Source: Caprimulgus europaeus
Lineage: Eukaryota > Chordata > Aves > Caprimulgiformes > Caprimulgidae
Assembly: GCA_907165065.1 (NCBI GenBank)
Contig: OU015540.1
Location: 3,828,001-3,892,000 of the forward strand
DNA length: 64,000 nt
Direction: 5' to 3'
The position numbers and the translations under genes were made by a program. Shown one piece after another: positions 44,185 through 56,200 of the stretch. Below the pieces are notes generated by a model. That model searched no databases. It was not told the DNA's origin and saw only the letters and a list, made by a program, of their open reading frames with translations. Each line of letters begins with the position of its first letter. The stretch's first letter is position 1.

Positions 44185-46552
44185 TGAGGTGACACTTTCA
44201 CTGGCTTGTTAATTGGACTGTGGGTGTGAGTTTGTCTTCTGAGAGCTTTACTCTTGAAGGAAAGTTCAGAGATGGTTGGGAAAGTGTCTGCTACTTGGGT
44301 TGCATTATAAACTGGGGAAACTATTACAACTGATTCCTATTTAACTGCTTTATAAAAGTAAAAAGCATTGAATTGCTTCTTAATGGCCTAAATGGCCACT
44401 AGGTACAGGCTGGACAACTAGCTGAAAGTTACTATTTTGATTTGGAAGAATATCTGAGCTTTAAGGGGGTTGATGTGGCCACGTGTTTCTGGTTCTCACT
44501 CAGGCTGTCACCTGGGGACTGGAGGTATTTGGGCAGTTTTCCATCATTACGGAGCACTGCCTGGGATAAGATTGGCTGAGCTTTAAGGAGGGCTGCAGCT
44601 CTCATTCTGTCACTGGGATGCAAACACTTCTTACCTCTGATAACCCATTTCTATCAAAACCCCACCTACTTTCATTGCTTGAAGAAGCTGGAAGGTTATT
44701 CTGAATGGGTATCAGCTTTAAAAGCCTTTAATATAAAGATCTACAAAGTTAAACTGAGGGCAAACTTTGCTTCTTGACTTAAATGCAGTGGTGAGAAGTT
44801 TTAACAGGAGCCACCTGTGCATCAGTGGGGTTGGCCCCAGCTGGTGACCTTCCTGGTACCCCACTGTCACAACCCCACTGTCACAACCCCACTGTCACAA
44901 CCCCACTGTCACAACCCCACTGTCACAACCCCACTGTCACAACGCTGCCTTTTCATGTTTGAAACAGCAGCTGAGCACCACAGGTAGGACCTGCTGTGTC
45001 CTTTTCTGAACAGGAGGGAGAATGAAAACCATTTGTTAAGGGATAAAAAGAATCTCTCAAGAGCTTCAGTAGTAAGAGGGCTTTCAGGTTTGGAAAACAT
45101 CTGTTCAGGTAGTGAAAACCATAAGCTTTTTCCTGCACTAGACAGGGAAGGCAGCCAGACACCAGAGTGCTTTAGTTCCCTCTGCAGGTGCCCAGTTACA
45201 CCCAGGTAACACAGCTCGCAGCTTGGCCGCTGTTCAGTCTCGGGGGGCACAGTGTGTTCTGAGAAGTGTCCCATGGTCTGTCATACCACAGTCACTTTGA
45301 CCTGAAAGTTCCATTCTGACTGACTCCAGCTATCCCCAGTGAAATAACTGCAGTCATTCAAACCAACACAGGCTCTGGTCACTCTCTTAATCTCCTCACA
45401 TTACTTTGTTCTTAAAAAAAAACACCCCAAAAAATAAATTCACAGCCAGCTTTTTCCATCATTACATTTCAATAAAAACAAAGTCTCAAGGCAGTCAGCA
45501 AATGAAAGATGGGTTAGAATCAATAAGGCTCATACTGTAGGTGCAATTTTCTCTTTTTTTTTTAATTCACATTTTATCATTGGCCCTTTTGAAATAGTCT
45601 TCTCACAAAATGAAGGGGTTTGGGCTTGGAAAAAAATTGCTTTTGGAAGAATGCTCTACCACTTTTAAAAGCAGTGTTCCATAAGAATACACAGCTCCAC
45701 TTCTCAGTCTTCTCTAGGCTGTGGAAATACCTGCTCAGTGTGAGCTGGATGATGGGGGGCTGAGACAAGGCTCTTTCCTCCTCCTCTTCGAGCCGTGCTC
45801 ATTTCCCTCCTTGCTTTTTGCAAATGGAAAACGAGCACAGACGGGGCTTTTCCTACATTGTTCCTCATTCTTTGGCTAATCACAGAGATGACAATTTTTT
45901 TTCTCCCCTTGATAGGTTCTCACCCAGAAGATTAATTTCTAACCTTCAGTATAGCAAGAAGCACAGAAACAAAGCAAGTGGACAAGAGTTTTACAGCCTG
46001 ATGTATGTGATTTGTGAAGTCAGCCACCAGGACAAGCTTACCGACTACAACAGGCTGGACGTGGGAATGAGACTTTGCTTTTTAATAGCTACAGGACAGC
46101 AGAATCCCTGCTTCCTCACTGAAGGGAAGGCATTTCAAGTATTAAAGTTTTCCCAGTCAGTCTTCCTGCTTCCACAGGGAGGGCTGAAACACTTGCAGGT
46201 TCTCCAAGGAGAAGTGGCAGAAGGAAAACACTTTAAAGAAACACTGGCGTGAAGATGCGTTTACGTAGAGCGCTGCGCCGGTGAGGGGTCTGTAATCTAT
46301 CTGCTTTTAGATCTACCTTTCAGGGCTCAATGAGGGTGGAGGCCAAAATCAGTTTTAAAAAGGTTAAAACACAAAAAAAAAATTAATAATTTTGGACAAT
46401 TACAAAAAATGTTGCTTAGCAGCAGCCAGCCTCTGACCAGTTCTTTCAGTAATGGCATTAAAAAACAACCTGATTAATAGTTCCAGACATAGTGCTAGGC
46501 AGAAACCTTGTCTCAGTGTTAACAGCTCCCTCCCACTCTTCATTCTGCTCTT
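44185..46552. other. Convergent intergenic region between ATP5MF and CPSF4
   Basis: Holds a 14-bp minisatellite (44859-44942) and, on the minus strand, the probable CPSF4 3' UTR. Possible minus-strand polyadenylation signals of the ATTAAA type are at 46086-46081 and 45566-45561; I see no AATAAA close to the stop. A 144-codon plus-strand frame (45818-46252) without family similarity lies antisense to this UTR. Confidence 0.45.
44859..44942 (+). repeat. 14-bp minisatellite, six perfect copies
   Basis: Six back-to-back identical copies of CCCCACTGTCACAA, without a mismatch. The purity implies recent expansion. It sits about 700 bp beyond the ATP5MF polyadenylation signal. Confidence 0.98.
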
Positions 46553-49500: not shown

Positions 49501-52500
49501 TGGGCCCTTCTGGACAGAATCCTACCAGGTAATTCACACAAATGACTCTTCGAGTGTGCCGGTGTCTGCAGAGGGGACCTGCAACACAAAGCTCCACAGG
49601 TCACGTTCCACGTGTGCCTACCCCAGCGCTCAGCAGCAGCAGGTGCACAAGCAGATCATGCAAAGGAAGAATAGCAACACCTACCCTTCATTTGCAGCCA
49701 CAGAGGCAGCAACTGCCCTTTTAATAAGGGCAGGGAGTGACAGAACAAGGGGAAATGGCTCTAAACTGGAAGAGGGCAGGTTTAGATTGGATCTTAGGAA
49801 GAAATTCTTTGGTGTGAGGGTGGTGAGACCCTGGCCCAGGTTGCCCAGAGAAGCTGTGGCTGCTCCTCCCTGGAAGTGTTCAAGGCCAGGCTGGATGAGG
49901 CTTTGAACAACCTGGTCTAGTGGAAGGTGTCCCTGCTGCTGGCAGGGGGGTTGGGACTGGATGAGCTTTAAGGTCCCTTCCAACCCAAACCAGTCTGGGA
50001 TGCTATAGCTGTGTGATGTACATACCATGTTTACAGAAGCCTCTGTCATACCAGGGACAGTCTTTGATCTTAGACTCCGGGTCAATGTGCAAGAAGGGAC
50101 ATTCTTTGTTACTGCATTCCCCTGCACCAAAGGGAAACACACTTCTTAGTCAATTGTGTCAAGTTTGAGATCAAATGACTCACAAAACATTACCTGGATC
50201 ATGGAGCTTCCACAAAGCTGTTACCAACACTGCTAAATTCAGGCACAACAGTCTCACTGCCTGCCTTAACCTAGGTGAAGAACACCAAGGACTCACCCCA
50301 GGTGAGTAAAGTTCTACCAGACTGGATTATTTATGTGTGCTTTTAAAAATAATGAGGAAACTAAATTTGAAAGAGCAGTCATGATAACAAAAACCAAACA
50401 CTGAGTGCACCAGAAGTGTGGAGAAACTACAAATTGCACACTAACCTCAATCCAAGGAAACCTACAAGACTGTAAGTTTCTGACAGCAAGTTGCCTCATT
50501 ATGTCCAGATCTCCAGAGCTGGAAAGCAAGTGCATAAAAGTTTTGCACCCCCATACCCTCTGCTGCTCATCAACTCCCCAAAATAAGAGTCATGCAAAGA
50601 CCAACTGCTCAACCTACTCATCTCATACCCAAAACAGAACATAAGGCATAAAAATCCAGTGAAAACTTGAACTTCCCCCCTCTTCCCCCAAGGGACAAGC
50701 TCTTGAGAGAGAAGACATCTACAATATGTCACATTTAGGGGGATAAGAAGGTGAAGGGCTAAACAGATCTGAAAAAAGCACAATCTAACCCTTTAATCAG
50801 ACACAAAATGTAATGCTCTGAAGATGGGTGAGAAGGATGTGCCAGGATCTTCTTCACCAGACTCCCATGCCAGGGAGGAACACTCAGCAGGAGCTACAAC
50901 GCCCCTTACCAAATTTGGAGTAGAAGTAACACTCAGGCATCTTGGTCATGTCGTACTCGTGCAGAAACTCGCACTGGTCTCCCTTTTTGCACAGTCCTCG
51001 CAGCCAGTGTTTGCAAACCACTGTCTTTTCCCCACTGATGTGTCGGAACGGGCACATGCCTCCTGGGGAAGGATGGGACAAGGAGAAGGGGGGGAAAAAA
51101 AAAGAACAATTAAAACCTGCAGCACAGAGGGCAACAGCATCACTTTGTTCCTCTCTGCAAAAGGGGTTTCAGAAGCATCACTTGTTCGTACTAATTTAGC
51201 CTTTAGAGGCAATAACCACTTGGGACAAGTCTTATGTTACTCTCTAACAAGCCAAACAACATAGTCTCCAGCTTTTAATCCTGGTAACCACAAAGCACAG
51301 CAGTTAATACAGGCAGATCCACAGCAAGGTCTGTGTGTGGTGAGTCCAAGCCTTCCTTAACCGGTACCTTTGCTTAATCACCTCCCAGCTTCTTCCAAAA
51401 ATACCATCATTGCACCTGCACTGCAGTTATTCCAACATCCTTCAGCTTTATCCTCTCTCCAGGTTATCTCCTCATCTTTACAAAAACCAAGAGTACTGTA
51501 GACAGTGCTAGAAAATCTCTTCTCCCCCCTCCCCCTCTGTGACTGTACTGGAAATTTCACTTGCCTTTGCCACAAGCCGCCTTTAAAAAAAATTCACAGA
51601 CAGCCGCCCCCGATTCTGTAAAAACAAAGAAACATAATTAATGTTAACAAAGTTTCATGGCAAGTTGTAAAGTATTTCCTTCCCCTAGGAAGAAAATCTG
51701 GTCTCAACTTCAAAAGCAAAGCAGCATTTTGGTTTGGGGAATTTACTAACCCACATAAGTTCCTTGTTCAATCTGGCCCTCACAAATATTTATATTCTTC
51801 TTGAGGGGACAGCAAGGGGAATTTGCAGAGGTTTGGTGGTGCTTGTTTTGCTTTTCAGATATTTAAGTTTTATTGCCTGGGTTTTCCTCTGCTGTTAAGT
51901 CACTCATGTCTGTCTACAGTCCTGGCAATAACAAGTCTTCTATTTTTTGACCAGAACAGCCTGAAACAACCATTAGTGTTGGTTACCCAACCATTACCCT
52001 TTGCTGATCCTGATCAACAAGAACCACAACATTCAAGGGAGTTAAAACACAAGTTTAAGAGCCTAGTCAGAAAATTTCAGTGAACTCTTGAGTTTCCTGA
52101 GACAACCTGTGTCAGATTATTACACTGGAAGGAAAGGTTGAGAGTCCAGGCCATGGGTGTAGCTAAAGATGAAGCTTCTCTACCATCAAAATACTTCATC
52201 TATCAAAAGGGAATGAAAAAAAAGCAATAAAGCACTCTGTAGCAAAGTGTTTATTCACAATAATGCCTCAACTTTTGTTTTCCAGCTTGGCCAGGTTTTA
52301 ACTACAATTTTCATTAAGTAGGAAAGAAAAACATCGGGATTGAGACACAAACCTGACAGGGAAAGCGGAACTTGGGTGGATTTAAGGATCAGACCTGAGC
52401 AAAGCGCTCAGACCCTCGGAAACCTCCCACCCTCCCTCGCACCCCTCTACCCCCCTCCCACCAGCCAAACCCGGGCCCCTCCCCGGCGGAAGCCCTGAAG

Positions 52501-52649
52501 GGACAGGGGAGGAGGGAACCGCGCGGCGCCCGCTGCCCACACGCACTGTCCATGCCGGGGAAAGGCAGCGGCTGCGCCCCCAGCTGCTGCTCCACAGCCA
52601 GCTCCAGGTCGAACTTGATGTGATCCACGCTGGCGATGAGCTCCTGCAT
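46553..52649 (-). CDS. CPSF4: Cleavage and polyadenylation specificity factor subunit 4 (CPSF30)
   Basis: Eight coding exons on the minus strand: 52649-52547, 51615-51565, 51062-50910, 50121-50026, 49578-49485, 49003-48931, 48072-47980 (or from 48093) and 46621-46553. The product is about 243 residues (250 with the upstream acceptor of exon 7). It starts [20 protein letters not shown]. Five CCCH zinc fingers follow, with first Cys and last His at about 41-59, 68-86, 96-114, 124-142 and 148-166, and a C-terminal CCHC knuckle ([14 protein letters not shown]) precedes the end [12 protein letters not shown]4 is the zinc-finger subunit of the nuclear mRNA 3'-end cleavage complex and contacts the AAUAAA signal. 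The ATG has a strong Kozak context (GCCACCATGC). Intron 2 uses a GC donor; the exon 7 start is uncertain (see findings). It shares a divergent promoter with PTCD1. Confidence 0.96.
49722..50008 (+). mobile_element. CR1 LINE insertion in CPSF4 intron 4
   Basis: A sense-oriented CR1 3' end on the plus strand, antisense to CPSF4. It runs from 'acagaacaaggggaaatggc' through 'aggaagaaattctttggtgt' and 'ggtctagtggaaggtgtccc' to 'ggtcccttccaacccaaacc' and a terminal 'gggatgctat'. It closely resembles the copy at 63352, suggesting the same young subfamily. It fills most of the 447-bp intron and ends about 17 bases from the exon 4 donor. Confidence 0.95.
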
Positions 52650-52903
52650 GGTGGCGGCTGGGGGGCGGCGGCAGCGGGACGGAAGGGGAGGTATGGTGGT
52701 GGTGGTGGCGGCGGCGGACGGCCGGGCTCGGGCTGACCCGGCCCGGCCGGCTCCGCTCCGCGCCGGCAGCGCCTTGAGGAGACCGGGGGTGGGTGGGGAG
52801 GCGGAGGCGGCAGATCCTTGCCGCCCCGCGCCACCCGCCCGCCCGCGGAATGCCGGGAGTCACCTCTCACCCCGCTGCCTAGCGGGCAGCGCGCGCGACT
52901 TCA

Positions 52904-53197
52904 CCAATCAGAACGTGCCGGTCAGGCTCCGCTCCCGCGCCTCCGCCAATCAGAGTGCTCCGGTCGGGCTCTTCTAGCTCGCCTCCGCCAATCAGAGTGC
53001 TCCGGTCGGGCTCTTCTAGCTCGCCTCCGCCAATCAGAGTGCTCCGGTCGGGCTCTTCTTGCTCGCCTCCGCCAATCAGAGCGCGTCGGCCGGGCGCTTC
53101 TCCCGCGCCTCCGCCAATCAGAGCGCGCCGATCTAGCTCCTCTCCTGCGCTTTCGCCAATCAGAGTGCGCTGTTTGGGCTCTGCTCCCGCCTGCGCA
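52904..53197 (+). repeat. Seven-unit 42-bp CCAAT-box (NF-Y) tandem array
   Basis: CCAATCAGA begins at 52904, 52946, 52988, 53030, 53072, 53114 and 53156, so every interval is exactly 42 bp. The core CCAATCAGA is identical in all seven units, and most units are preceded by GCCTCCG. Units 2 and 3 are identical and unit 4 differs by one base; units 1, 5, 6 and 7 vary between the cores. CCAAT followed by CAG is the optimal NF-Y site. All boxes have the same orientation. Forty-two bp is four helical turns, so bound factors would lie on one side of the DNA. Confidence 0.97.
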
Positions 53198-53203
53198 CGC
53201 GCA
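53192..53203. promoter_or_regulatory. NRF-1 binding site TGCGCACGCGCA
   Basis: A perfect match to the NRF-1 consensus (YGCGCAYGCGCR), 60 bp upstream of the PTCD1 ATG and overlapping the end of the last CCAAT unit. NRF-1 drives many nuclear genes for mitochondrial proteins, which fits PTCD1. Confidence 0.85.
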
Positions 53204-53262
53204 GTGGCTGAGGGGAGCGGAGCGGGCCCGGGCCCCGCTGTGGCGGTGGCCCCGGACGCACC

Positions 53263-56200
53263 ATGAGGGCCCTGCGGCTCCTCACCCCCCTGGGGCCGCT
53301 CGCCGCGCGGTGCCGGTGGGTCCCCTCCGCTCCTCCACTGCGGGGGCGGTGGGCAGACCCGCAGCAGCCCGGGAAGGCACCGTGCCTGTTCCGTTCCCCG
53401 GGCCCGCTGCCGGGCTGGAGGCCGTTCAGCTCCTCACAGGCATCCTGCAGCCTGGCCGGTAACGACCGGAGAGAGATCGATGGCGGCAGCGGCGCTGAAG
53501 CTGTTGGTGAGGAGGAGGAGGAGGATGATGAAGGCGTGGAGTTCGGGACGCTGTCGAATAAATTTTCTTCTCGCCAGTATTACCACAAAGCCACCTCGCG
53601 GCTTCAGAACCTAAAGCTTCAAGAAGAGGGGGAGGAGGAACCGCAAAGAAAACTGCGACGAGGTCCTAAGAACACCCCGTACTGGTACTTCCTGCAGTGC
53701 AAGGCCCTGATCAAAGAGGACAAGGTGTGTGCCCAGCCCTTCGCTGCTTTGCTTTTTAACGGTGCTGGATCATCGAGAGACAGCTCAGCCTTGTTGAAAT
53801 AGATACTCTGCTTCTGTTGGCAATACCTACCAACAGAAGGTGCTGGACAGATGATTCCACCTTCCTGTGTCTGTGTTCCCTCTGAAAATAGGAACTGAGT
53901 TAACTCTCCCTTTTTGAAGGTGTCCAGACAGTTATTTTTTTCCACAAATCCAGCTGTTCCTCAACCTGTCTCTGTTCAGTCACTCTGCCGTCCCTCTGGC
54001 AGTCTGGGCTTTGGTATTTGTCTGCCAACACTTCTCATCCCAAACCCCTGCAGCTCTGTCCCATCTGGATCATCCAACCATTGAGTATCTTTACAGAAAG
54101 AAGTAAAATAAGAATTTGTGAGGAATCCTGCGCTCTGTGGGATTTCCACCAGAACCTGCTCACAGCTGCCTATATTAAGATCCACTGTAATCGATTCTGT
54201 TGTTTCCTCACCATGGATTTTCCTCTTCCCCGTAGCTGGCGGAGGCTCTGGAGCTGTTTGAGGTGCAGATGCTGAAGGAAGAGCGTGTGCAGCCAGAAGA
54301 AAGCAATTACACTGTCCTGATCGGCGGCTGTGGCAGGGTTGGCTACGTGAAAAAGGCATTCAGGCTCTACAATGATGTAGGTTCACATCCTCCCCTCTCT
54401 CAACTCTTGATCAGGTTTGCTAAGCTAAAACTGTTTCCAGCATTTGGTCCCATTACTTTGTCTCCAGAATGCCTTTTGAGTTACTGTTTGCATCTTCTTA
54501 GCCTGAAATTCTTAAAACCAAGTTATGAAATTCTAGAAATCCTTCCTAAAAAGTCAGTTCTCATTCTTTTTCTTTTCCCTTAGATGAAAAAACGAGGCTT
54601 AACCCCCACTGAGGCCACTTACACCGCCCTGTTCAATGCCTGTGCCGAATCACCGTGGAAGGACTCCGGCCTGCAGAGTGCCCTCAAGTTACATCAGCAG
54701 CTCAAGAGCAAAAACGAAGAGCTGAACCTGATCACCTACCACGCACTGCTGAAGGTCTGCGCCCTGTGCTCCGATCTCAGGATGTGCTTTGATGTCCTGA
54801 AGGTAAAGATGTCACTTTTCTCGTATTAAGTGAAGTCTGCTCTGGTTAAAGCTCCTGGAAGTTGCCAAATTGCATAGAGGTTTTTATTTCATTTCCAGCA
54901 GTGATTACAGATCATGTGTTCCTATTTCATTGATCCTCAGTCTCATACAATGAAATCATCTTGGTCCATGCCAGACATTTTAAGTTGAAGTAGCTGCTTT
55001 CCAGTACCTGAAGGGAAAGCTGGGGAAGGACTTTTCACAAGGGCAGTTAATAACAGGACAAGGGGAAATGGCTTTAAGCTGAAAGAGGGGAGGTTTAGAT
55101 TAGATATTAGGAAGAAATTCTTCACTGTGAGGGTGGTGAGACACTGGCCCAGGTTGCCCAGAGAAGCTGTGGCTGCTCCTCCCTGGAAGTGTTCTCGGCC
55201 AGGTTGGATGAGGCTTTGAGCAACCTGGTCTAGTGGAAGGTGTCCCTGCTGCTGGCAGGGGGGTTGGAGCTAGATGATCTTTAAGGTCCCTTCCAGCCTA
55301 AACCATTCTATGATAAAAAGAGGCAGCAACAGCCTTAAACAGAAGTTGGCTTTAAAACTCTGGTCAGGTGTGTTTTGTGGGGCTCAGAGTTACTGTGTTT
55401 GTCTCCATCCCTCATTTAAAAGACTCAGATACTGATACCTCGTTCCTTTTAAAGCTCTTGCAGCAGCTCTTCTCAGAAGGGACAGTGTGGGAGTAGCTAA
55501 AAGGATTGCTGTTTCTGCCCTCAAATTCCCTGTAGCTCCCATCAGGGAGAAACCAGGATCTATACAGGTGTTTTGGGGCTCTTCTCCTCCTGAAGCCATT
55601 GTTCTGCTTGCAGCACTGGGAGTTCACACAGAATCACTAAGGTTGGAAAAGATCTCTCAGATCATCCAGTCCAACCATCACCTCATCACCACCATGGCCA
55701 CTAAACCCTATCCCCGAGTGCTGTGTCTACATGTTTCTTGAACAGCTCTAGGGATGGTGACTCCACCACCTTCCTGGGCAGCCTGTCCCAGTGTCTGACC
55801 TGTCCCAGTGTCTGACCTGTCCCAGTGTCTGACCTGTCCCAGTGTCTGACCTGTCCCAGTGTCTGTCTTTTGGAGAAGAAATTTTCACCTGTCCTCTGTT
55901 GCTGTGATGTCCCCAGAAGACAACAGTGGTATTTGAGCTTCACAGCCAGCAACAACAGATTGTGTGGGTAACTGGGAAGTTTAATGCTCTCTCTGGTCTT
56001 TTAGGAAATTGTGCACAAGGGCCATGTTCTTACAGCTGAGACCTTCAGCTTCCTTCTCATGAGCTGCATAAAGGACAGCGAGAACGGCTTCCGATACGCC
56101 CTGCAGGTTTGTCTTTATGTCCTACATGGGGAGGAAAAATGCTGCTGTGCTGTAACTCATCACCTGAACGCAGGGAAGGCAGTGGGCTGCTCAGAGCTGA

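Follow-up and report, generated by a model that had tools for sequence, protein, structure and literature searches.

Seven NF-Y-type CCAAT boxes in a 42-bp tandem repeat between CPSF4 and PTCD1, a probable NF-Y platform

The start codons of CPSF4 and PTCD1 point away from each other across 613 bp of DNA, and within this interval lies a tandem repeat in which an NF-Y-type CCAAT box recurs seven times. On the evidence of the sequence, the array is most likely an NF-Y platform upstream of PTCD1, beside a match to the NRF1 consensus, that would serve the divergent gene pair. As a whole explanation, we consider it likely that such a box was amplified in tandem and that its cores were kept through NF-Y binding.

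Results

A single 42-bp unit in seven head-to-tail copies

The first-pass annotation had described seven CCAAT boxes at exact 42-bp steps, and every one of the claimed positions was reproduced. The motif CCAATCAGA occurs seven times on the plus strand with a step of exactly 42 bp (Table 1), and these seven are the only exact matches on either strand of the window (the whole 64-kb stretch of DNA that was analysed). Shuffled versions of the window contained 1.17 copies on average, with a maximum of 4 among 100 shuffles. Tandem Repeats Finder (TRF) reported one array at 52904-53190, with a period of 42, 6.8 copies, 84% matches and 0% indels; together with a separate repeat search, which gave the same spacing, this confirmed head-to-tail copies of a single unit. 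It is the whole 42-bp unit that is duplicated, the CCAAT box being one part of it, and the copy frames used here begin 14 bp ahead of each CCAAT.

An ungapped scan with the unit consensus found no eighth copy in the flanks or elsewhere in the window; the next best match reached 24/42 positions, compared with 32-40 for the seven copies. When the array was searched against the whole assembly, skipping very common words, it matched only itself, and an exact CCAATCAGA triple at 42-bp steps was unique to the array (5 overlapping matches). Long open reading frames (ORFs) run through the array, as its 42-bp period is divisible by 3 and the local GC content is high. No Rfam family was found in the window at gathering thresholds, and a bacterial promoter and terminator scan of the window, a type of scan not meaningful for this DNA, returned nothing.

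Two other minisatellites in the window are perfect according to TRF (both 100% match), at 44858-44943 (14 bp × 6.1) and 55782-55865 (17 bp × 4.9), and are probably young and variable. The word AGGTCCCTTCCAACC, resembling the 3' end of CR1, occurs at window positions 849, 6273, 49971 and 63570, in keeping with avian CR1 elements; these words, the gene order and the assembly size of 1.18 Gb suggest that the genome is that of a bird.

Table 1 Features of the array, its surroundings and the dispersed 41-bp family (window positions unless a contig is named)
Feature	Position	Strand	Basis
42-bp tandem repeat, seven copies	52890..53190	+	TRF, unit alignment, repeat family D1 spacing 42
CCAATCAGA box 1, most diverged copy	52904..52912	+	exact match, unit alignment
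CCAATCAGA box 2	52946..52954	+	exact match, unit alignment
CCAATCAGA box 3, unit identical to copy 4	52988..52996	+	exact match, unit alignment
CCAATCAGA box 4	53030..53038	+	exact match, unit alignment
CCAATCAGA box 5	53072..53080	+	exact match, unit alignment
CCAATCAGA box 6	53114..53122	+	exact match, unit alignment
CCAATCAGA box 7, 107 bp ahead of PTCD1 ATG	53156..53164	+	exact match, unit alignment
NRF1 consensus YGCGCAYGCGCR match, immediately 3' of array	53192..53203	+	pattern scan
CPSF4 first coding exon, ATG 52649-52647	52547..52649	-	ORF translation; splice end by eye
PTCD1 first coding exon, ATG 53263	53263..53724	+	ORF translation; splice end by eye
CpG island, limits approximate	52400..53600	.	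200-bp bins, GC profile
Dispersed 41-bp family, places listed	C1:45250399, C3:71120830, C3:77128875, C5:235794, C9:38901795, C16:9090108, C20:11573148-11573688, C22:8806011		

The array lies in a divergent CpG-island promoter

The location between CPSF4 on the minus strand and PTCD1 on the plus strand, as originally annotated, is supported by ORF translations, a CPSF4 match in the PDB and downstream PPR exons. The ORF of a downstream CPSF4 exon (50884-51168) matched CPSF4 chains with an E value of 2e-41. The plus-strand gene to the right of the array we take to be PTCD1, a name supported by the gene order, with BUD31 (identified by Pfam) next downstream. Two of its downstream exon ORFs matched PPR families in Pfam; its first exon matched no Pfam family, and the best PDB match of that exon was no better than E 0.011.

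The last box is 107 bp from the PTCD1 ATG and the first is 255 bp from the CPSF4 ATG, the boxes being direct repeats upstream of PTCD1. Their orientation and position suggest a stronger role for PTCD1 than for CPSF4. CpG observed/expected ratios over the array were 1.05 and 1.14 in two 200-bp bins. A pattern scan found a match to YGCGCAYGCGCR, which we take to be the NRF1 consensus, at the 3' edge of the array. Between 52550 and 53350 the scan returned four GGGCGG/CCGCCC words and no match to the TATA, CRE, ETS or YY1 consensus sequences.

The core is invariant while the spacers have drifted

NF-Y had been put forward as the binder of the boxes, and comparison of the copies upholds it as the likely one, since the CCAATCAGA core is identical in all seven copies and the spacers have drifted. 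Invariant columns made up 9/9 of the core and 10/33 of the spacer, and the hypergeometric probability that all nine core columns would fall among the 19/42 invariant columns was 0.0002. This probability was 0.0013 when columns touching a CpG were removed, and only 0.014 when CCAAT alone was taken as the core. Such a test is biased by ascertainment, the array having been chosen for its repeating core; the probability of any circular run of at least nine invariant columns in the 42-bp unit, which corrects for this in part, was 0.006. By parsimony (best of 945 trees, 17 tied), the 33 spacer columns underwent 31 changes and the nine core columns none. The boxes are, in this comparison between copies within one genome, better kept than their surroundings. 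Because the cores are invariant while the spacers have diverged, selection has probably maintained the CCAATCAGA boxes. The published NF-Y contact range beyond the core showed no significant constraint (13 changes in 16 columns, compared with 18 in 17 linker columns; p = 0.25).

A competing explanation is that function resides solely in the box closest to the PTCD1 start and that the other six are passive by-products of minisatellite growth in GC-rich DNA, their cores intact through recency or gene conversion. Part of the expansion is indeed recent: copy 3 is the same as copy 4, and only 3/42 positions separate copy 2 from either. Further tandem arrays are also present in the window (10 TRF rows). 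However, the remaining pairs of copies differ at 6-14/42 positions, and copies 1, 5, 6 and 7, which are the more diverged ones, with spacer distances of 0.40-0.72 substitutions per site among them, look old on this measure and still retain all nine core bases. We consider it unlikely that six of the boxes are passive, and favour preservation of the cores through NF-Y binding.

The 42-bp spacing follows from duplication

The fixed 42-bp phase had been offered as evidence in its own right, a reading that did not hold, since tandem duplication fixes the spacing by itself. The spacing is constant because the unit was duplicated in tandem and not because seven sites were placed independently. It is nevertheless compatible with NF-Y binding: as described in the available text of Haubrock et al. 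2016 (PMC4982600), NF-Y bends DNA strongly and its adjacent sites must lie no less than 24 bp apart, and a 42-bp step satisfies this minimum for simultaneous binding and places the boxes on the same helix face.

We weighed the possibility that the exact spacing was itself selected, as a helix-phased cooperative NF-Y stack. The number 42 is 4 × 10.5, and CCAAT direct repeats in human c-Fos-bound promoters show distances that peak at 31 bp and then at about 41, 52 and 63 bp, which were read as placing the pairs on the same helix face (available text of PMC4982600). No indel accompanies the 31 inferred substitutions, but the chance of this falls from 0.21 to 0.02 as the assumed indel:substitution ratio rises from 1:20 to 1:8, and the absence of indels is weak evidence for selection on phase.

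Across the genome, 16/26 CCAAT array periods fell within 2 bp of a multiple of 10.5 (binomial p = 0.02; V test p = 0.006). Among periods of 54 bp or less, 15/22 CCAAT arrays (V test p = 0.003) and 10/17 control arrays (p = 0.37) lay near such multiples. These counts are approximate, as arrays were grouped by eye among the matches listed. In the CCAAT list each locus counts once, as does the dispersed 41-bp family as a whole; the list omits irregular clusters, units shorter than 24 bp, the 62-bp second half of C12:4948k and the C33 paralogue of C26:877k; the control list comprises 17 regular loci, with irregular loci and units shorter than 24 bp omitted. The mean phase difference between CCAAT and shuffled-motif arrays was not significant (permutation p = 0.07, or 0.09 without this array). 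Moreover, a 9.5-bp period fitted the first 25 CCAAT arrays better than 10.5 bp did (Rayleigh 0.002 vs 0.029) because the periods form two clusters, near 32 and 41-42. The lean towards 10.5 is suggestive at most, and is weak evidence because the 9.5-bp period concentrates the array periods more strongly. With constant spacing obtained for free by duplication, selection on the 42-bp step appears improbable to us, and we retain the view that it was set by the duplicated unit.

CCAAT arrays are frequent in this genome

The array had also been presented as unusual for its seven units in fixed helical phase. This is not borne out by the genome: at least seven clustered CCAAT boxes, and up to 31, were present at 14/33 other loci inspected (15/34 including this array). 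The 34 loci come from the matches listed first and are not a random sample, with any CCAAT counted and gaps of up to 75 bp allowed; the loci with at least seven boxes divide into 14/29 in the first set and 1/5 in the second, this array included. The claim of rarity is weakened further by the published CCAAT pair peak at about 41 bp (PMC4982600) and the tandem repeats of about 41 bp in LTR12 (PMC11853044), as given in the available text of both. Among the 15 loci with at least seven boxes, fully uniform spacing was found only here and in the C20 member of the 41-bp family. CpG observed/expected over the array exceeded 0.6 at 3/15 loci, namely this one, C26:877k and C23:472k, with C15:153k at 0.59.

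Searches of the assembly for three CCAATSRG motifs gave 154 + 183 matches at 24-54 bp apart, vs 35 + 36 for the reversed motif, and 109 + 94 matches at 42-72 bp apart, vs 28 + 30; these counts include overlapping matches inside single arrays. Grouped by eye, the CCAATSRG matches listed up to C23 formed about 37 loci; about 20 of these were tandem arrays, 8 belonged to the 41-bp family and about 9 were irregular clusters resembling promoters. The shuffled-core motif ACATCSRG gave 115 matches; as far as contig C23 these could be grouped by eye into about 19 loci. For the reversed-letter motif there were about 13 as far as C22, of which 7 belonged to one subtelomere-like satellite. Judged by the shuffled control, ordinary tandem arrays of CCAAT have about the same frequency as arrays of an arbitrary word, a similarity (by eye, among the matches listed) that speaks for six of the boxes being minisatellite by-products. 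Compared with the reversed motif, for which array loci were fewer, CCAAT arrays are commoner, leaving room for a modest enrichment. The existence of a CCAAT tandem array alone needs no special cause. Nor does an array by itself prove promoter function, because CCAAT arrays also occur in CpG-poor DNA, for example beside a MAP2K7 exon.

That array, at C33:1113980-1115082, contains 31 CCAAT boxes. Of these, 22 are CCAATCAGC; most steps measure 31-34 bp, and the spacers have diverged strongly. It is more striking than the array between CPSF4 and PTCD1. A 39-aa stretch beside it matches MAP2K7 (MKK7) chains in the PDB (E 1.8e-19), and the array is CpG-poor over most of its length. Its units were anchored on CCAAT, which is therefore necessarily invariant among them. 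No Pfam family was found for the longer ORF beside it or for two other ORFs near arrays. Other large clusters comprise 24 boxes mostly at 32 bp in CpG-poor DNA with diverged spacers (C26:1813430-1814179), 18 boxes on C15 and 15 on C7. On C28 (1654431-1655152), thirteen CCAATCAGT boxes stand mostly at 60 bp in units that also have a TATATAA-like stretch, which looks like a repeated mini-promoter. Twelve boxes 62-70 bp apart lie in CpG-rich DNA at C26:876779 (extracted piece 780-1490), and C33:274764 has a unit similar to theirs by eye. At C11:11406448 (extracted piece 949-1350), ten boxes, most of them at 42-bp steps and separated by diverged spacers, adjoin CpG-rich DNA; this independent array has a period close to that of the CPSF4-PTCD1 array.

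The array is probably distinct from the dispersed 41-bp family

The genome also contains a dispersed family of 41-bp repeats with one CCAATCAG/CCAATCGG box per unit and up to 14 boxes, the largest count being that of the C20 member. This candidate LTR family recalls the LTR12 enhancer: the U3 region of LTR12/ERV9 carries 5-17 tandem repeats of about 41 bp with NF-Y sites and a highly conserved CCAAT (available text of PMC11853044). The presence of a family with CCAATCAGAGTG every 41 bp would be in line with derivation of the CPSF4-PTCD1 array from a retroviral LTR enhancer of the same kind. Against this, the array has a single match in the genome, itself, in the search that skips very common words, and its units aligned with two members of the 41-bp family (not with LTR12 itself) no better than shuffled spacers did (p = 0.25, 0.51), revealing no relation beyond the core. 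We regard an LTR origin as very unlikely.

Discussion

Multi-CCAAT promoters, an NF-Y-driven bidirectional promoter and tandem NF-Y arrays of about 41 bp are already in print, as far as the available texts go. Mouse Sars2-Mrps12 reportedly has a bidirectional promoter driven by NF-Y, in work by Zanotto et al. in 2007. In the open-licence literature, we found by titles and abstract beginnings no publication on a CCAAT array at CPSF4-PTCD1, and the available text of a house finch paper contained nothing on CCAAT arrays. The combination of a host divergent promoter with an NF-Y platform made of a perfectly regular seven-copy repeat was likewise not found in print within that literature. The array is probably functional, and it represents a switch of a kind already known and not a new one.

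The closest parallels differ from it in instructive ways. Like the NF-Y- and c-Fos-bound promoters of Haubrock et al. 2016 (PMC4982600), the array has direct CCAAT repeats, and its 42 bp is near their peak at about 41 bp; unlike the dimers described in the available text, it has seven boxes that arose from one tandem-duplicated unit. LTR12 is a human endogenous retroviral LTR with GATA/MZF1 sites (available text of PMC11853044), whereas the array belongs to a host CpG-island promoter. The human P4HB promoter has six CCAAT elements within 378 nt, and mutating any one of them cuts activity by up to 50% (PMC3500226); a tandem-repeat origin and constant spacing, which characterize the present array, are not stated for P4HB in the available text.

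We propose that one NF-Y-type CCAAT box and its flanks in the CPSF4-PTCD1 promoter were tandemly duplicated to seven 42-bp units, after which the spacers would have drifted and the CCAATCAGA cores stayed, most likely through NF-Y binding. Seven NF-Y trimers could coat about 250 bp and, by analogy with other promoters, hold the intergenic stretch nucleosome-free. Such a platform would set the transcription start of PTCD1 and perhaps that of CPSF4, and NRF1 is its likely partner where the array ends on the 3' side. The 42-bp phase would suit side-by-side NF-Y binding, but its value came from the length of the duplicated unit. NF-Y in mouse ES cells maintains a nucleosome-free region upstream of start sites and suppresses ectopic initiation, and CCAAT motifs are more numerous in those promoters where loss of NF-Y moves the start (PMC6624317). 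The median distance of NF-Y sites upstream of the TSS in these cells is 94 bp (PMC6624317), compared with 107 bp between the last box and PTCD1 here, a distance measured to the ATG and not to the TSS. NF-Y motifs are also enriched 5.255-fold in human bidirectional promoters (PMC3121118).

A broader reading, which we hold to be doubtful, is that minisatellites containing a good NF-Y site give rise to long, roughly helix-phased NF-Y platforms in this genome, with units near 32, 42 and 62 bp, through duplication followed by core selection and spacer decay. If this were true, the array between CPSF4 and PTCD1 would rank as the most regular of the CpG-island promoter cases seen, and the one with 31 boxes next to the MAP2K7 exon as an extreme example.

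The array may be viewed as a natural experiment: a promoter common to two genes, one for mRNA 3'-end processing and one mitochondrial, came to hold seven evenly spaced copies of one activator site. It would allow the effects of NF-Y box dose and spacing to be tested on a real sequence. Overall, the array would illustrate how minisatellite growth can build a promoter platform.
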